Of a stretch of DNA of 64,000 bases, positions 53,917-60,268 are shown piece after piece; the stretch's first letter is position 1; each line of letters opens with the position of its first letter. The notes under the pieces were generated by a model. That model did no database searches. It was not told where the DNA came from and saw nothing but the letters and a program-made list of their open reading frames with translations. A program made the position numbers and the translations under genes. The stretch is from Erysipelothrix anatis (GTDB lineage: Bacteria > Bacillota_I > Bacilli_A > Erysipelotrichales > Erysipelotrichaceae). The stretch spans positions 1 to 64,000 of the forward strand of contig NZ_WTSX01000006.1 in the NCBI RefSeq assembly GCF_009828745.1, written 5' to 3'.

Positions 53917-54321
53917 ATGACGAAGAGTCGTAGTGTTGAGAGACAAGATGCAATGCGTGCAGTGTATATTCACTTAGTACGTGATCAAGCAATCGAGGAA
54001 GTATTGGAAGATAACGCCTTTATTTCAAATGTAAGTGACTTTATTCCCAAATTTGAGTTTGGTGAAGAAATGCTTGAAGTCATTCATCGTGCTGTTGCAC
54101 GAAAAGAGATTTATGGCTTAGCTTTAAATCAATACTTAAATAACTGGAAGTTTGATCGTCTTGGTTATATCGAACAAGCGATTATGCTTATTGCTGCAGC
54201 TGAGTTAGAACTCGGAATTCAAGCAAAAGTTGTTGTCTTAGATGAGGCTGTGCGTTTAGCGAAAGAATTTGCAGACCAAGACTCATACAAATTTATAAAC
54301 GGAGTATTAGACGCAATATGA
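53917..54321 (+). CDS. nusB: Transcription antitermination factor NusB
   Basis: NusB with NusE (S10) promotes rRNA antitermination. The 134 residues have the all-helical family pattern (RQDAMRAVYIHLV, then NWKFDRLGYIEQAIMLIAAAEL). KVVLDEAVRLAKEFADQDSYKFINGVLD forms the conserved C-terminal helix pair. The ribosome site is GGAGG. It starts a string of tightly packed genes running through recN to dinB. Confidence 0.96.
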   Translation: MTKSRSVERQDAMRAVYIHLVRDQAIEEVLEDNAFISNVSDFIPKFEFGEEMLEVIHRAVARKEIYGLALNQYLNNWKFDRLGYIEQAIMLIAAAELELGIQAKVVVLDEAVRLAKEFADQDSYKFINGVLDAI

Positions 54322-55805
54322 TGCCAAAAGAGAAGGTCATTACGGTTTCAGAATTTGTTAATGAACTCAAAGGTGTTATTCAGAAACATCCGTCTTTTAA
54401 GAATGTCGCATTGGTAGGAGAGCTTTCAAACTTTAAAGCTCACCACAGTGGGCATTTTTATTTTTCTCTGAAGGATGCAAAAAGTAGGGTTTCGTGTGTT
54501 ATGTTTCGCAGCAAATCTAGTATGGTTAAATTTAAACCTAAAGATGGGGATAAAGTTGTCATCCACGGATCTATTGATGTCTTTGAGTCGACAGGATCTG
54601 TCCAAATCTATGTCGAATGCATGAACTTGGATGGGCTGGGTGATTTATTCATTCAGTTTGAAGCTTTGAAGAAAGAGTACTTGGAGAAGGGGTATTTTGC
54701 TGTAGAGCATAAAAAACCGATACCGAAGTACCCGCATTATCTTGGGGTTATCGTTGGTGAAGGAAGTGCTGCTGCCGCGGATATTGCACGAACACTACAT
54801 GAACGATGGCCTGTTGCTCAGGTTCATGTTCTTTATGCGTTTGTTCAAGGAGAATATGCGGTGGACAGTATCGTTAAGCAAATTGCTTATGCAAACACCC
54901 TAAATCTCGACACTATAATTCTTGCTCGTGGCGGTGGATCAATAGAAGATTTGTGGTCATTTAATGAACCCAAAGTATTGGAGGCTGTCTATAACTCGAA
55001 AACACCGATTATTTCAGGAGTAGGGCATGAAAGTGATGTCACCTTGGTTGATTATGTTTCAGACTATCGGGCTGCGACACCGACCGCTGCTGCAGTTCAT
55101 GCAACACCCAATACTAAAGATTTACTCGAAAATTTACGAGATTATAAAAATGCATACTATAAGTCTGTTCGCAATAAATTAAGACAAAACCAACAAGGTT
55201 ATCAAACGATTATGTCACAACGCTATTTGCAAGACCCTTTACGTTTTATTGAAATGAAACAACAATACTTGGATTATCATCAAAACAAAGTGACACATCA
55301 AATTTACCGATTTGATACGATTAAACAAACACTTCAACAACAAATCCATGGTTATGAGAAAATGTTAAATCTTAAATTTCAAGAAAGTAAAGGACACATA
55401 AAGACATTCGAGAGTGAATTCTACTACAACGTCGAACAACGCATTCGACAGGAAGATGTCCGCCGAAAACAATTTGATCAAAGTTTGATGTTTTCAGTTA
55501 GTGGAATTCAACGTAAAATACCACAATTTTACACAATCACAGAAGAGACTGATGTGGCTTTAAAACGGCGTATTGAACGATTAATCAACTTGAAAGCCAG
55601 TCAGTTTGGCGATATAATAAAAACAATAAGCAACAATAATCCGGTTGCGAAATTAGAAACAATTTATGCAAAAGGATTTGCTCGTGTAAGCATGGATTCA
55701 GAACCCATTACATCCATAAAGAATGTGGAGGAAGGGGATGCATTAACCATCGCTGTAAAAGATGGTGTAATTCAGGCGACAGTGAGTGGAAAGGACCCAG
55801 TATGA
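54318..55805 (+). CDS. xseA: Exodeoxyribonuclease VII large subunit
   Basis: XseA carries the catalytic domain of exonuclease VII, which cuts single-stranded DNA from both ends. The 495 residues have an N-terminal OB fold (LVGELSNFKAHHSGHFYFSL) and the core VIVGEGSAAAADI with ARGGGSIEDLWSFNEP. GHESDVTLVDYVSDYRAATPTAAA is the catalytic segment. A long helical tail precedes the end. ATG 54318 overlaps the nusB stop; folD, often between them, is missing. Confidence 0.95.
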   Translation: MMPKEKVITVSEFVNELKGVIQKHPSFKNVALVGELSNFKAHHSGHFYFSLKDAKSRVSCVMFRSKSSMVKFKPKDGDKVVIHGSIDVFESTGSVQIYVECMNLDGLGDLFIQFEALKKEYLEKGYFAVEHKKPIPKYPHYLGVIVGEGSAAAADIARTLHERWPVAQVHVLYAFVQGEYAVDSIVKQIAYANTLNLDTIILARGGGSIEDLWSFNEPKVLEAVYNSKTPIISGVGHESDVTLVDYVSDYRAATPTAAAVHATPNTKDLLENLRDYKNAYYKSVRNKLRQNQQGYQTIMSQRYLQDPLRFIEMKQQYLDYHQNKVTHQIYRFDTIKQTLQQQIHGYEKMLNLKFQESKGHIKTFESEFYYNVEQRIRQEDVRRKQFDQSLMFSVSGIQRKIPQFYTITEETDVALKRRIERLINLKASQFGDIIKTISNNNPVAKLETIYAKGFARVSMDSEPITSIKNVEEGDALTIAVKDGVIQATVSGKDPV

Positions 55806-56002
55806 GTGAAACGTTTAATTTTGAAGCAGCAATGAAACGATTGGCAGAGATTGCAACTTTGCTTGAAAAAGACGATTTGTCATTAGACAATGCCATCGCA
55901 CTGTTTGATGAAGGGTTACAATTATCAAAACAGTGTCAGACCCGCTTAACCCAATACGAAACAACAGTTAAAGAGCTTGTTCAGAAGCACCAAGGAGAAT
56001 AA
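55802..56002 (+). CDS. xseB: Exodeoxyribonuclease VII small subunit
   Basis: A 66-residue helical subunit that coats the XseA arms (FEAAMKRLAEIATLLEKDDLSLDNAIALFDEGLQL). It overlaps xseA by four bases, and ispA follows one base after its stop, the standard order. Confidence 0.95.
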   Translation: MSETFNFEAAMKRLAEIATLLEKDDLSLDNAIALFDEGLQLSKQCQTRLTQYETTVKELVQKHQGE

Positions 56003-56003
56003 C

Positions 56004-56843
56004 ATGAATTTAATGATCGAAAGCCGTTTACGAGAGCTAGTCCAAGAATATGGAAATACGACAGTTCAAGATGCAATGTCCTACTCACTGCTGAGTGGGG
56101 GTAAGCGCGTTCGACCACGCCTTTTGTTGAGTCTACTTGCTGATTATGGTGTTGATTTATATCAAGGATTAAATCAGGCATGTGCTCTTGAAATGATTCA
56201 TACGTACTCGCTTGTACATGATGACTTACCAGCTATGGATAACGATGATTTCCGCCGTTTTAAACCAACGAATCATAAAGTATACGGTGAAGGAATGGCA
56301 ATTCTTGCAGGAGATGGTTTGCTCACTGCAGCCTTTACGACACTTGCCAAAGCAGATACCGTCAGCGCCGCGACTCAAATGAAAACTGTTGAAATTTTAG
56401 CTCGTAATGCCGGTGCACACGGCATGATTTTAGGACAAGAGCTTGATATTGTTGATAACATTGGTTCCGTCGAAGCACTTATCCAATGCTATGAAATGAA
56501 AACAGGATGTTTGTTTGCTGCTGCTTTAGAAATGGCAGTTGTTATTGCAGGGAAAGATGACTTGCAAGATACTGCGCGTACCCTGGGTTTGAAACTTGGC
56601 GTCGCATTTCAATATCAGGATGATATTTTAGAAGTAACGAAGACAAGTGACGAAATTGGGAAGAGCCATCTTAGCGATGGTGAACGTGAAAAGAGTACTA
56701 TTGTAACGTTATTAGGCTTAAAACGTGCTCAAAACGCAACAGAAGGCCTATTTAAAGAAATCAAAGTGCTGTTGGATCGTCTTGATTTAAATGGCACAGA
56801 ACTACAAAAACTCATTGAAGAAATGATCGCACGCGATCTTTAG
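56004..56843 (+). CDS. ispA: Farnesyl/geranyl diphosphate synthase
   Basis: A prenyl chain elongase that adds isopentenyl diphosphate to dimethylallyl and geranyl diphosphates, supplying isoprenoid precursors for undecaprenyl phosphate. The 279 residues have the first Asp-rich motif DDLPAMDND (73-81) and the second DDILE (206-210), plus GGKRVRP near 32. Both metal sites are intact. ATG 56004 follows AAGGAGAA. The downstream dxs-like gene, by contrast, has lost its active-site motifs. Confidence 0.95.
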   Translation: MNLMIESRLRELVQEYGNTTVQDAMSYSLLSGGKRVRPRLLLSLLADYGVDLYQGLNQACALEMIHTYSLVHDDLPAMDNDDFRRFKPTNHKVYGEGMAILAGDGLLTAAFTTLAKADTVSAATQMKTVEILARNAGAHGMILGQELDIVDNIGSVEALIQCYEMKTGCLFAAALEMAVVIAGKDDLQDTARTLGLKLGVAFQYQDDILEVTKTSDEIGKSHLSDGEREKSTIVTLLGLKRAQNATEGLFKEIKVLLDRLDLNGTELQKLIEEMIARDL

Positions 56844-56852
56844 GAGACAGTC

Positions 56853-58625
56853 TTGTTTAATCAATTTAAGAATTCGAATGCAATTCGTGATCTTAAACCA
56901 GCAGAGCTTGATGCACTAACTGATGAAATCGCAACATTTTTAGCTCAAGAGACACGATTTGATGTCGAAACAATCATAAAAAATATCAATGTCCTCGAGA
57001 CAACACTTGCTTTGCATAAGGTATTTGACCTAAACAAAGATCGTGTTGTTTTTGATGGTGGGCAACAAGTTATGACCCATAAAATTTTGACGGGTCGTGC
57101 ACAGGATCTTGCGTTGCGTACCAACATTCCATTAACGTTGGACGCTACCAATCCTTTTGACGCATATACAGGCGGTGATATTGGAGAGGGACTTGGTGTC
57201 GGACTTGCATATGCACTAGATGCTCCACAAAACCATACAATCGTTGTAATCGATGACCATGCACTAAATTATGGACTAACCTATGAAACGTTGGTTCAAA
57301 TAAGTAAAGAAAAACCGAATATCATTATTGTGATGATTGATGAACAACAATCGTTACTGCGTCACTATACGTCAATGAATACATTCGTAAAAAGTATTCG
57401 AATTAGTAAAACATATACCGGTTTAAAGAAAGATATGAAGACTGTTTTGGATTCCAATCCAATTTCACGTCCTATTTTAAACACGTTGGTACGCGTTCGA
57501 GATGCCTTGAAAGAGACGGTTCTTGAACCTACAATCTTTACGCAATTTGGAATTGATTATCATGGTCCAATTGATGGACAAAACATCAGTGATTTAGTTC
57601 GTGTTTTTGAGATGGCGAAAACAATGAAAGGTCCAAATCTTATTCATGTTCAAACGCGCCTTCGTAAAAAACAACGTCGCAAGTTAGAATTTCCCAATTT
57701 TAAACTGGATGATGCAACACCAGACAATTATAAAACCTATCATGAGATTTTTGACTCTACGCTTGTAGGGATTCGCGATCCTAAATTGATGCTGCTTGTA
57801 GACGCACTTAATTTTGGAGATTACTTTAGTGAATTCGCTGAAGCATACCCAAACAATTATGTCGTGACATCTGGTAGCACTGAATCATTAGTTACAATGG
57901 CTGCTGGATATGTTCGGATGGGATATCGTGTCGTAGTAGCACTATCCTCACAACGTGTGTTAGAGGTACAAAGTCACATCAACAATCAATTCAAACTTTC
58001 CGAATTACCGTTGACACTCCTTATTCGCAGTACGGGACTAAATTCAACAGGTAACCGTTTTGAGCAAGGGGTTTATGATATTGGTGCTTTAGAACACCTC
58101 GCAAACGTTTATATGCCTAAAGACCTTAACGAGGCCAGTGGTTTGTTGAACAAAATTTTACAAAAACCAGGAATTAATGCGATTCGATATCAAAATGATG
58201 CAGAAAAACACATGCCACAATTGCTTGATTTGGATGCCATTTGGGAAATAGCACACCCTTTTGATGTTTCTAGTGAAGGGGTCATCTTAACATTTGGAAC
58301 CTCGATTCAAGATTTTATCAAAAAAATAGAAGCAAACGCACTAAATGTTGGTGTAGTAAATACACGAAATTTATCAAGTGTTGATTCCGAATTGCTTCAA
58401 AAAATTGCGGAGTTTCATCACAAAATTCTTATTTATAATATAGAAGATATTCACAACGAGTTATACTATCACATTTTACGTCACTGCTATGAACAAAAAC
58501 TTGATTTAGAAATTCATTGTGTTGATTTAAGAGGTCTCGAGCTAACAGCTGGATCTAAAGAACTTAAACGTGCACATCATTTACATATTGATGATGCAAT
58601 TCGATTACTAATAGAAGGGAAATAA
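56853..58625 (+). CDS. DXS-like protein with lost catalytic motifs (probable pseudoenzyme)
   Basis: A 590-residue protein in the dxs position between ispA and recN. It aligns end to end with 1-deoxyxylulose-5-phosphate synthase, but every cofactor and active-site motif is altered. The SGGHxGxNLGVVELT region reads ETIIKNINVLETT (39-51) and GHQ...HKILTGR reads GGQQVMTHKILTGR (69-82). GHSSTS is TGGDIGEG (106-113), the thiamine-diphosphate GDGA is DDHA (134-137) and its NDN partner is DEQ (163-165). DRAG and THQG are RSTG (392-395) and RFEQG (402-406). The frame is open throughout, so it is kept under selection. TTG start with TAGGAG. Activity as DXS is very unlikely; the present role is unknown. 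Confidence 0.85.
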   Translation: MFNQFKNSNAIRDLKPAELDALTDEIATFLAQETRFDVETIIKNINVLETTLALHKVFDLNKDRVVFDGGQQVMTHKILTGRAQDLALRTNIPLTLDATNPFDAYTGGDIGEGLGVGLAYALDAPQNHTIVVIDDHALNYGLTYETLVQISKEKPNIIIVMIDEQQSLLRHYTSMNTFVKSIRISKTYTGLKKDMKTVLDSNPISRPILNTLVRVRDALKETVLEPTIFTQFGIDYHGPIDGQNISDLVRVFEMAKTMKGPNLIHVQTRLRKKQRRKLEFPNFKLDDATPDNYKTYHEIFDSTLVGIRDPKLMLLVDALNFGDYFSEFAEAYPNNYVVTSGSTESLVTMAAGYVRMGYRVVVALSSQRVLEVQSHINNQFKLSELPLTLLIRSTGLNSTGNRFEQGVYDIGALEHLANVYMPKDLNEASGLLNKILQKPGINAIRYQNDAEKHMPQLLDLDAIWEIAHPFDVSSEGVILTFGTSIQDFIKKIEANALNVGVVNTRNLSSVDSELLQKIAEFHHKILIYNIEDIHNELYYHILRHCYEQKLDLEIHCVDLRGLELTAGSKELKRAHHLHIDDAIRLLIEGK

Positions 58626-58627
58626 CT

Positions 58628-60268
58628 ATGCTCCAACATCTTGCTATTAAAAATTATATCCTCATTCAAGATATCTCCGTAGACTTATCTGATAATTTCA
58701 ACGTGTTTACTGGTGAAACTGGATCAGGAAAATCCATGCTTGTCGATGCTTTGAATTTTGCATTTGGACAGCGAAGCAGTGCAAGTATTGTTGGAAAGTA
58801 TGATGATGTTTCTCGTGTAGAAATGATTTTTACAGTCGCTGATAATCATCCAGTAATTCCTTATCTTGAGGAAATAGGGTTTGATGTCGACCCTAGCGAT
58901 CCAATCATCATTTCCCGTGATATGAATCGTGATGGGAAGAGTAATGCTCGTATCAATCACCGAATTGTAACAGCTTCACTATTACGTGAATTAGCAGGAT
59001 ACCTCATTGATATTCACTCTCAACATGAAACTCAAAGTTTGCTTAATAGTAAACAACACTTAAACCTACTTGATCGATTTGCATCAATACAAGAGGCTCT
59101 TGAAACATATTCTCATCTGTATCAAACGTATAAAGAAGCACAACGAGATTTAGAAACGTTTGAATCCAGTGATATTTCGCCGGACGAGATTGAGCGTGCT
59201 GAAGCAATGTTACGTGAACTGGAGAAATTCAAACCAAGTGTCGATGACTATACAAGTTTGACTGAAAACCTTGAAACGATGTCAAATTTCGAACGATACC
59301 AAACTATTTATAGTGATATGCTTGAGATATTCAAGCAAAATGATGCACTTGCGCGTCTTTATGATGGTTTATCGTTATACGAAGAGCTTAATAACGATAC
59401 ACTGGGTGAAAAATATCGTGAAGCATATTTTCTACTCGAAGATGTCCGAGACACCGTCCAGGCACTTAGTCATGAACTGCAATTCGATGCATATGAATTT
59501 GATTCATATCAATCACGCATGTACCAGTATCAACAATACTTCCGTAAATTTGGCGATGTTGAGGGTATTTTAGCGGTTATGGAAACTTATGATGCATTGC
59601 TACATCGTGCAAAACACTTTGATGAAATCCGTGAAGACTTTCAGAACATCCGTGATGTTGCACTTGATGTAGCGACAGAATCAGCCAAGTCATTAAGTGT
59701 AAAGCGTCGCGATGCTGCAGTTGAACTGGAGAAGGCTGTGGAAGTTCAATTGCATGATCTGATGCTCGAACATGCGCGTTTTGAAGTCAAATTTTCAAGT
59801 GTAAACTTAAATCAAAATGGCCATGATAATGTACAATTCTATGTCAGTATGAATAAAGGTGAGGATTTAGCCCCACTCGACAAAGTCGCGAGTGGAGGGG
59901 AGTTGTCACGGCTGATGCTCGGTCTTAAAGTCATTTTCAGTCGTGTTCAACATATTGATACAATCGTCTTTGATGAAATCGATACTGGTGTTTCAGGACG
60001 TGTTGGAATGCGAATTGGACAAAAAATGAAGGACCTTTCAAAGGAAGCACAAGTACTGACAATTACTCACTTGAGCTCAGTGGCTGCACATGCGCACCAA
60101 CATTACAAAATATCCAAATCTCAAGAAGATGAAGCTACCATGACATCTATTGATCAGCTAACACCTGAAGAGCAAGTGGAACAACTTGCATTAATCATGA
60201 GCGGATCTGTATCCAGCGCGTCACTGCTTGCAGCACAAGAATTATTAAAAGAAGGGCAATCGTTTTAA
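58628..60268 (+). CDS. recN: DNA repair protein RecN
   Basis: An SMC-like ATPase active at double-strand breaks. Of 546 residues, Walker A is GETGSGKS (29-36). Coiled-coil arms follow (about 155-360), then the signature ASGGELSRLMLGLK, Walker B IVFDEIDTGVSG and ITHLSSVAAHA. It directly follows the dxs-like gene, without the tlyA and argR genes usually in between. The one-base overlap with dinB suggests coupling. Confidence 0.96.
   Translation: MLQHLAIKNYILIQDISVDLSDNFNVFTGETGSGKSMLVDALNFAFGQRSSASIVGKYDDVSRVEMIFTVADNHPVIPYLEEIGFDVDPSDPIIISRDMNRDGKSNARINHRIVTASLLRELAGYLIDIHSQHETQSLLNSKQHLNLLDRFASIQEALETYSHLYQTYKEAQRDLETFESSDISPDEIERAEAMLRELEKFKPSVDDYTSLTENLETMSNFERYQTIYSDMLEIFKQNDALARLYDGLSLYEELNNDTLGEKYREAYFLLEDVRDTVQALSHELQFDAYEFDSYQSRMYQYQQYFRKFGDVEGILAVMETYDALLHRAKHFDEIREDFQNIRDVALDVATESAKSLSVKRRDAAVELEKAVEVQLHDLMLEHARFEVKFSSVNLNQNGHDNVQFYVSMNKGEDLAPLDKVASGGELSRLMLGLKVIFSRVQHIDTIVFDEIDTGVSGRVGMRIGQKMKDLSKEAQVLTITHLSSVAAHAHQHYKISKSQEDEATMTSIDQLTPEEQVEQLALIMSGSVSSASLLAAQELLKEGQSF

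Follow-up and report, generated by a model that had tools for sequence, protein, structure and literature searches.

DXS has been studied intensively as an antibacterial target and viewed almost only as a catalyst. Its feedback regulation by binding of IDP/DMADP, partly via monomerization, is established (cited in PMC13001223 and PMC11019550). A loop of the enzyme at residues ~197-240 is poorly conserved and does not shape the active site; glycine replacement of this loop leaves comparable activity and the loop is thus dispensable for catalysis (PMC10504544). Proteins of the DXS fold that have no DXS activity and no usable TPP site have been described in plants as class-3 DXS/DXL (tomato SlDXS3, Arabidopsis DXS3; PMC10675008), and some Listeria carry an incomplete MEP pathway beside the mevalonate pathway, possibly with a side role (PMC13001223). 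We found nothing relevant on DXS or mevalonate in Erysipelothrix in the open-licence literature searched.

The window analysed here is a stretch of 64,000 nucleotides from Erysipelothrix anatis (contig NZ_WTSX01000006.1, positions 1 to 64,000 of the forward strand; assembly GCF_009828745.1, 2.19 Mb in 29 contigs). It contains, on the plus strand at 56853..58625, a frame of 590 uninterrupted codons with a TTG start that encodes a protein of 590 aa with a predicted DXS fold and without the DXS active site. We refer to this protein as pseudo-DXS. A Shine-Dalgarno-like AGGAG (56841..56845, +) lies about 8 nt 5' of the TTG and overlaps the stop codon of ispA (55977..56843, +), the intact farnesyl diphosphate synthase gene that adjoins pseudo-DXS upstream; the ispA frame is counted from the TTG at 55977 and an alternative start is possible at an ATG downstream of it. 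With the conserved upstream neighbours xseA and xseB (54318..56002, +) and with recN (58628..60268, +), which starts 2 nt past the pseudo-DXS stop codon, the gene order is xseA-xseB-ispA-X-recN, X being pseudo-DXS. Several relatives have a tlyA-like gene before recN, and Erysipelothrix has none between pseudo-DXS and recN (window 58625-58628; L101, L102).

A Pfam search of pseudo-DXS returned DXP_synthase_N (PF13292) as the sole match with 174 bits. The NCBIfam dxs models match the protein over its length but below both cut-offs. TIGR00204 gives 215.7 bits, which is under half of its equivalog cut-off of 465.95 and does not qualify the protein as an active DXS, and NF003933 gives 218 bits for a cut-off of 395 (just over half). 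DXS of the same family with largely intact motifs score 627-761 with TIGR00204. The AlphaFold model computed from a 40-sequence alignment (pLDDT 81, pTM 0.74) superimposes on E. coli DXS (2o1s) over 503 residues (Z 33.1, 3.1 A), in agreement with a full-length DXS fold. The alignment behind this model contained true DXS and may push the model toward the DXS fold. An earlier model from 13 sequences, with poorly arranged domains (pTM 0.53, rmsd of about 21 A to DXS), is superseded by it. The source genome has one other PF13292 match, a weak one in a 407-aa frame of a pyruvate dehydrogenase operon, and a search of the whole genome found no second DXS.

To read the motifs in register we aligned pseudo-DXS with 27 DXS of the family, one of which (L006) is itself half-decayed. 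Residue numbers are those of pseudo-DXS (P0001), while Glu370, His49 and the like refer to E. coli DXS. In this 27-sequence alignment pseudo-DXS retains 65 of the 145 near-invariant DXS columns. The motifs, all on the plus strand, read VET for GGH (residues 38-40, 56964..56972, with T40 for His49), GQQ for GHQ (residues 70-72, 57060..57068), GDIGEG for GHSSTS (residues 108-113, 57174..57191, with D109 for His121) and DDHA for GDGA, the diphosphate/Mg site (residues 134-137, 57252..57263). They continue with IDEQQS for NDNNMS, which includes the Mg ligand Asn181 (57336..57353; NDN to IDE at residues 162-164), STESL for AEEHA (residues 342-346, 57876..57890, with T343 for the catalytic Glu370 and His372 affected as well), RSTG for DRAG (residues 392-395, 58026..58037) and TGNRFEQG for EDGDTHHG (up to residue 406, 58047..58070, with G400 for Asp427 and E404 for His431). 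The catalytic Glu370, His49, His121, Asp427 and His431 and both glycines of GDG are therefore absent, and what remains is D135 (the Asp of GDG), D163 (the Asp of NDN) and R445 (Arg478). Motif losses are found in all 13 Erysipelothrix species genomes. We considered an alignment artefact, in which the motifs would be in register elsewhere, and ruled it out because the columns of canonical DXS do align and the 13 species have the loss in common.

The ThDP-activating glutamate is universal, and both this residue and the diphosphate glycines are needed for normal ThDP catalysis. Since pseudo-DXS has lost them, it very likely lacks normal ThDP catalysis. This conclusion, which extends to the formation of DXP from pyruvate and GAP, is inferred for this protein from established enzymology. 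A preliminary description of the locus, made from the sequence alone, had proposed a full-length DXS homologue in the xseA-xseB-ispA-dxs-recN slot with 590 codons free of stops, and this held on the frame, profile and fold evidence. Its claim that all motifs are replaced held only in part and is slightly too strong given D135, D163 and R445 in the in-register alignment; its placement of the GGH position at residues 45-48 failed, the true position being 38-40, about 7 residues away.

Erysipelothrix has the mevalonate pathway and no detectable MEP pathway. We found mvaD (mevalonate diphosphate decarboxylase) in 13 of 13 Erysipelothrix genomes, HMG-CoA reductase (mvaA) in 12 of 13 and mvaS in the three genomes sampled for it. 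The exception for HMG-CoA reductase is G124, where none was found by PF00368 despite the presence of mvaD, a result that may reflect an assembly gap or a different route. Neither dxr nor ispH was found in any of the 13 genomes, and ispG was not found in any of the three sampled. In the source genome, mvaK1-mvaD-mvaK2 is followed by a type-2 IPP-isomerase-like (fni-like) frame, and mvaS adjoins a thiolase gene; these neighbours are what we take them to be from reading their translations.

An intact pseudo-DXS frame is present in 13 of 13 Erysipelothrix species genomes, with protein identities of 32-98 %, among them 64 % for the homologue of G083. For named relatives, identity is 97 % in E. aquatica and 31-54 % in E. 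inopinata, E. tonsillarum, E. urinaevulpis, strain HDW6A and three MAGs. Against a close relative, pseudo-DXS has a dN/dS of 0.039; two pairs from the rhusiopathiae/tonsillarum-like cluster give 0.049 and 0.052. For the pairs with 0.039 and 0.049 the value falls between those of ispA (0.035-0.038) and recN (0.087-0.095), and in the third pair it lies under both (0.073 and 0.078). In close pairs pseudo-DXS is within or below the range of its neighbours ispA, recN and xseA. At larger distances its protein diverges at about the rate of recN. Synonymous positions of the conserved core vary freely, so the constraint acts on the protein. Pseudo-DXS is thus a working protein under purifying selection and not a pseudogene.

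One alternative is a dying gene whose frame stays open only through translational coupling to recN. The recN start 2 nt after the pseudo-DXS stop and the retention of the slot in all degenerate lineages would speak for it. However, a dN/dS of about 0.04-0.05 together with a highly conserved segment requires selection at the protein level and not merely an open frame, and recN follows directly on ispA or on a tlyA-like gene in other genera of the family. This explanation is already contradicted and can be all but excluded.

In pseudo-DXS the constraint lies no longer on the active site but on a segment of domain I. The best conserved part of pseudo-DXS comprises residues 177-237 (57381..57563, +), and by alignment the segment ~178-237 corresponds to residues ~197-240 of E. 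coli/Klebsiella DXS, the loop that is dispensable for catalysis. Mean pairwise identity of this segment is 0.63-0.70 in the pseudo family versus 0.36-0.48 in true DXS, making it the best conserved part of the former and among the worst of the latter. Domain II shows the reverse, with 0.66 in true DXS versus 0.31 in the pseudo family. The same holds at matched divergence: for ispA identities of 0.5-0.6, the segment has 0.67 in pseudo versus 0.50 in canonical pairs and domain II 0.29 versus 0.71, and for ispA identities of 0.6-0.7 the segment has 0.82 versus 0.47 (only two canonical pairs). When the profile of conservation differences is shifted circularly, only 0.6 % of the shifts attain the observed value. 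The segment keeps 67-90 % amino-acid identity where the overall identity is 41-64 %. Over 40 aligned sequences, degenerate and intact, 11 columns are invariant and six of these are R183, Y188, K192, L199, F229 and Y236. AlphaFold confidence is low in the segment (mean pLDDT of about 30-55), which may fit ordering that depends on a partner or may come from a shallow alignment; the shape of the segment is not resolved by the model.

A second alternative is changed chemistry, with a pocket remodelled to take a different substrate or cofactor and catalysis of some kind persisting. In its favour, the core Erysipelothrix clade has stable replacements (DD/ND with IDEQQS, and GGxxGEG), Asp135 and Asp163 persist, and pseudo-DXS is 64 % identical to its homologue in G083. 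Against it, the old active-site columns vary freely in the genus (T/V/I/Y at the Glu370 position and E/D/R/K/N/H at the His431 position) and domain II, which forms half of the pocket, is the part most relaxed relative to true DXS. In the pseudo family the former active-site columns have a conservation of 0.43, equal to the average of the protein (0.41 overall), which gives no sign of new chemistry in the pocket. We therefore consider changed chemistry improbable. Pseudo-DXS fulfils two criteria of a pseudoenzyme, being an enzyme homologue without essential catalytic residues and being under purifying selection; a third, a non-catalytic function, is only inferred. As the old pocket is conserved in no new form and the best conserved segment is the one dispensable for catalysis, a pseudoenzyme is favoured over changed chemistry.

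To find out how far such proteins extend, we looked at relatives of Erysipelothrix. In the order, 33 of 316 genomes have mvaD. Among these 33, the DXS that we read from genomes retaining ispG as well as dxr (G063, G007, G094, G065 and, in two pieces, G008) show motifs that are canonical or nearly so. Genomes with mvaD and without detected ispG and dxr are of two kinds, those that lost DXS and those that kept a decayed full-length DXS. To the first kind belong g37 (G036, G080) and g42, which have the mevalonate pathway and no DXS; the frame between ispA and recN in both is one that we take from its translation to be tlyA. The third g37 genome, G106, differs from G036 and G080 in having dxr alongside mvaS and mvaD, and may be a mixed bin or have both pathways. 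To the second kind belong Erysipelothrix, g50 (G049), g33 (G104, G032) and g48 (G047), with the decayed gene in an ispA-X-recN neighbourhood. The degenerate-DXS holders of g50, g33 and g48 are all mevalonate-positive, and ispG and dxr were not found in them. These absences weigh less for G049 and G032, which are 76 % and 84 % complete. G016 and G056 yielded no candidate for any of pseudo-DXS, ispG and recN despite a listed completeness of 98-99 %, and their absences were excluded from the evidence. Several genomes of the genus g8 have mevalonate and MEP genes together. In four g8 genomes (G007, G063, G309, G312) mvaD lies within frames of 620-624 aa, roughly double its normal size, which suggests that it is fused to a mevalonate gene next to it. 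G054 (genus g55), G021 and G052 carry extra divergent DXS-like paralogues of ~594-604 aa within one genome.

The decayed copies are at different stages. The half-decayed DXS of G049 (L113:979-2853) keeps GGHL and otherwise reads GQQ, QHPGSA, GDQA, DIQH, RDAG and SFHG. It is the sister of the Erysipelothrix pseudo-DXS in the DXS tree (support 99/98) and shares with it GQQ and the RxxG motif, yet retains GGHL. Judging from motifs and tree, it looks like a natural intermediate on the way to a catalytically dead protein. In g33, degenerate frames are found at L104:2185-4026 (G104) and L105:2906-4723 (G032), and a further g33 genome, G077 (66 % complete), has a canonical DXS and ispG. The g33 pair shows the pattern of constraint described above, with an identity of 0.69 in the segment against 0.44-0.53 for domains II-III and the N-terminal part. 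The frame of G047 in g48 (576 aa, L052:7018-8745), located between ispA and recN of a mevalonate genome, is extremely decayed; its best dxs-profile match covers residues 168-291 and it is recognisable mainly there. The DXS of G064 in g9 (L109:2660-4531) is almost canonical with GGD for GGH, and ispG and dxr were not found in this genome, which is 90 % complete. This may be the earliest stage of decay, or the gene absences may come from assembly incompleteness.

The ispA+recN tree rejects a single clade of degenerate-DXS holders (p-AU 0.00023) and requires 3 changes, and with it one origin for all degenerate copies is rejected. With the DXS tree alone, one origin remains compatible with the data (p-AU 0.31). 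On the ispA+recN tree there are at least two origins, one for Erysipelothrix with g50 and one for g33. A third separate origin in g48 is likely, with the reservation that this copy sits at the end of a very long branch, which makes its position unsure. Separate decay in at least two, and probably three, lineages suggests that DXS has a second, non-catalytic job. The retained role is not universal since g37 and g42 lost the gene altogether.

Taken together, these results make it likely that pseudo-DXS is a pseudoenzyme in which an older role of DXS persists, non-catalytic and probably one of partner binding; we infer this function only from the shift in constraint. We hypothesize that the DXS of the family had this second role before the pathway switch, and that the role would have been retained once catalysis became useless after the switch to mevalonate. 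A DXS-like, probably dimeric scaffold would present the segment (R183, Y188, K192, L199, F229, Y236) as a docking surface for a partner, for which there are no binding data. A first candidate partner may be IspA, with pseudo-DXS tuning prenyl-diphosphate synthesis; this possibility rests only on the operon neighbourhood, and other partners including mevalonate enzymes are not excluded.

Alternatively, pseudo-DXS may be a special form of pseudoenzyme, an isoprenoid sensor that kept IDP/DMADP sensing and signals to the mevalonate enzymes or IspA. Such a sensor would build on the feedback binding of IDP/DMADP to DXS (PMC13001223, PMC11019550) and account for retention exactly in lineages that switch pathways. 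Against it, the ThDP pocket, one proposed binding place of IDP/DMADP, is gone. In the absence of data on whether residues of the regulatory site are retained, we regard the sensor as unlikely and prefer a partner-binding pseudoenzyme. A bolder reading of that preferred explanation is that DXS in general has an unrecognised non-catalytic function in the variable, catalysis-dispensable segment of domain I, unmasked repeatedly when the swap from MEP to mevalonate lets catalysis decay; we would argue as readily against this generalization as for it.

The remaining proposals of the preliminary description can be judged on this basis. It had predicted the mevalonate pathway as the isoprenoid source feeding IspA, of which the pathway part held (mvaD in 13 of 13 genomes, dxr and ispH in 0 of 13), and its choice between a pseudoenzyme and changed chemistry is supported, the evidence favouring a pseudoenzyme with a retained role. 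Of the checks it suggested, dN/dS across Erysipelothrix revealed purifying selection on the protein (0.039-0.052 in close pairs), structure prediction gave a full-length DXS fold, and the motif loss recurs in g50, g33 and g48. Two of the findings that it held would refute it did not appear: the motifs were not in register elsewhere, and no complete MEP pathway was found.

The genomes offer a natural series from intact DXS in relatives with both pathways, through the half-decayed copy of G049, to the dead but conserved protein of Erysipelothrix. Along this series catalysis can be told apart from a possible second function, candidate residues for the latter come into view, and the question of whether DXS does more than make DXP becomes directly testable. 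In practice, annotation pipelines and pathway surveys may count such frames as dxs and infer a nonexistent MEP step.

The preliminary description had called the case undescribed, which held for bacteria in the literature searched, class-3 DXS of plants being the known inactive relative (PMC10675008). For an inactive bacterial DXS that is the sole DXS of mevalonate-only cells and arose repeatedly, the open-licence literature searched gave no precedent; within that literature inactive DXS-fold proteins are already known from plants and the bacterial case with repeated origin is apparently new. In trees, which contained no plant sequences, the nearest relatives of pseudo-DXS are DXS of the Erysipelotrichaceae family. 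Pseudo-DXS shares with canonical DXS the full-length three-domain fold, the gene slot after ispA and the family-invariant residues R183, Y188, K192, F229 and Y236 of the linker segment. It differs from canonical DXS in lacking the catalytic Glu370, His49, His121, Asp427 and His431, in its altered GDG and NDN, in scoring under half of the curated cut-off and in residing in a cell without the MEP pathway. Like pseudo-DXS, as far as it appears, the class-3 DXS of plants are inactive proteins of the DXS fold (PMC10675008), but they occur alongside active DXS in organisms whose MEP pathway operates, whereas pseudo-DXS is the sole DXS of a cell whose pathway is gone, and the bacterial decay arose more than once. 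Listeria resembles Erysipelothrix in retaining remnants of the MEP pathway alongside the mevalonate pathway; its retained enzymes, however, are presumed active in a partial pathway that ends at MEcDP, whereas Erysipelothrix keeps a single protein whose catalytic site has been destroyed.
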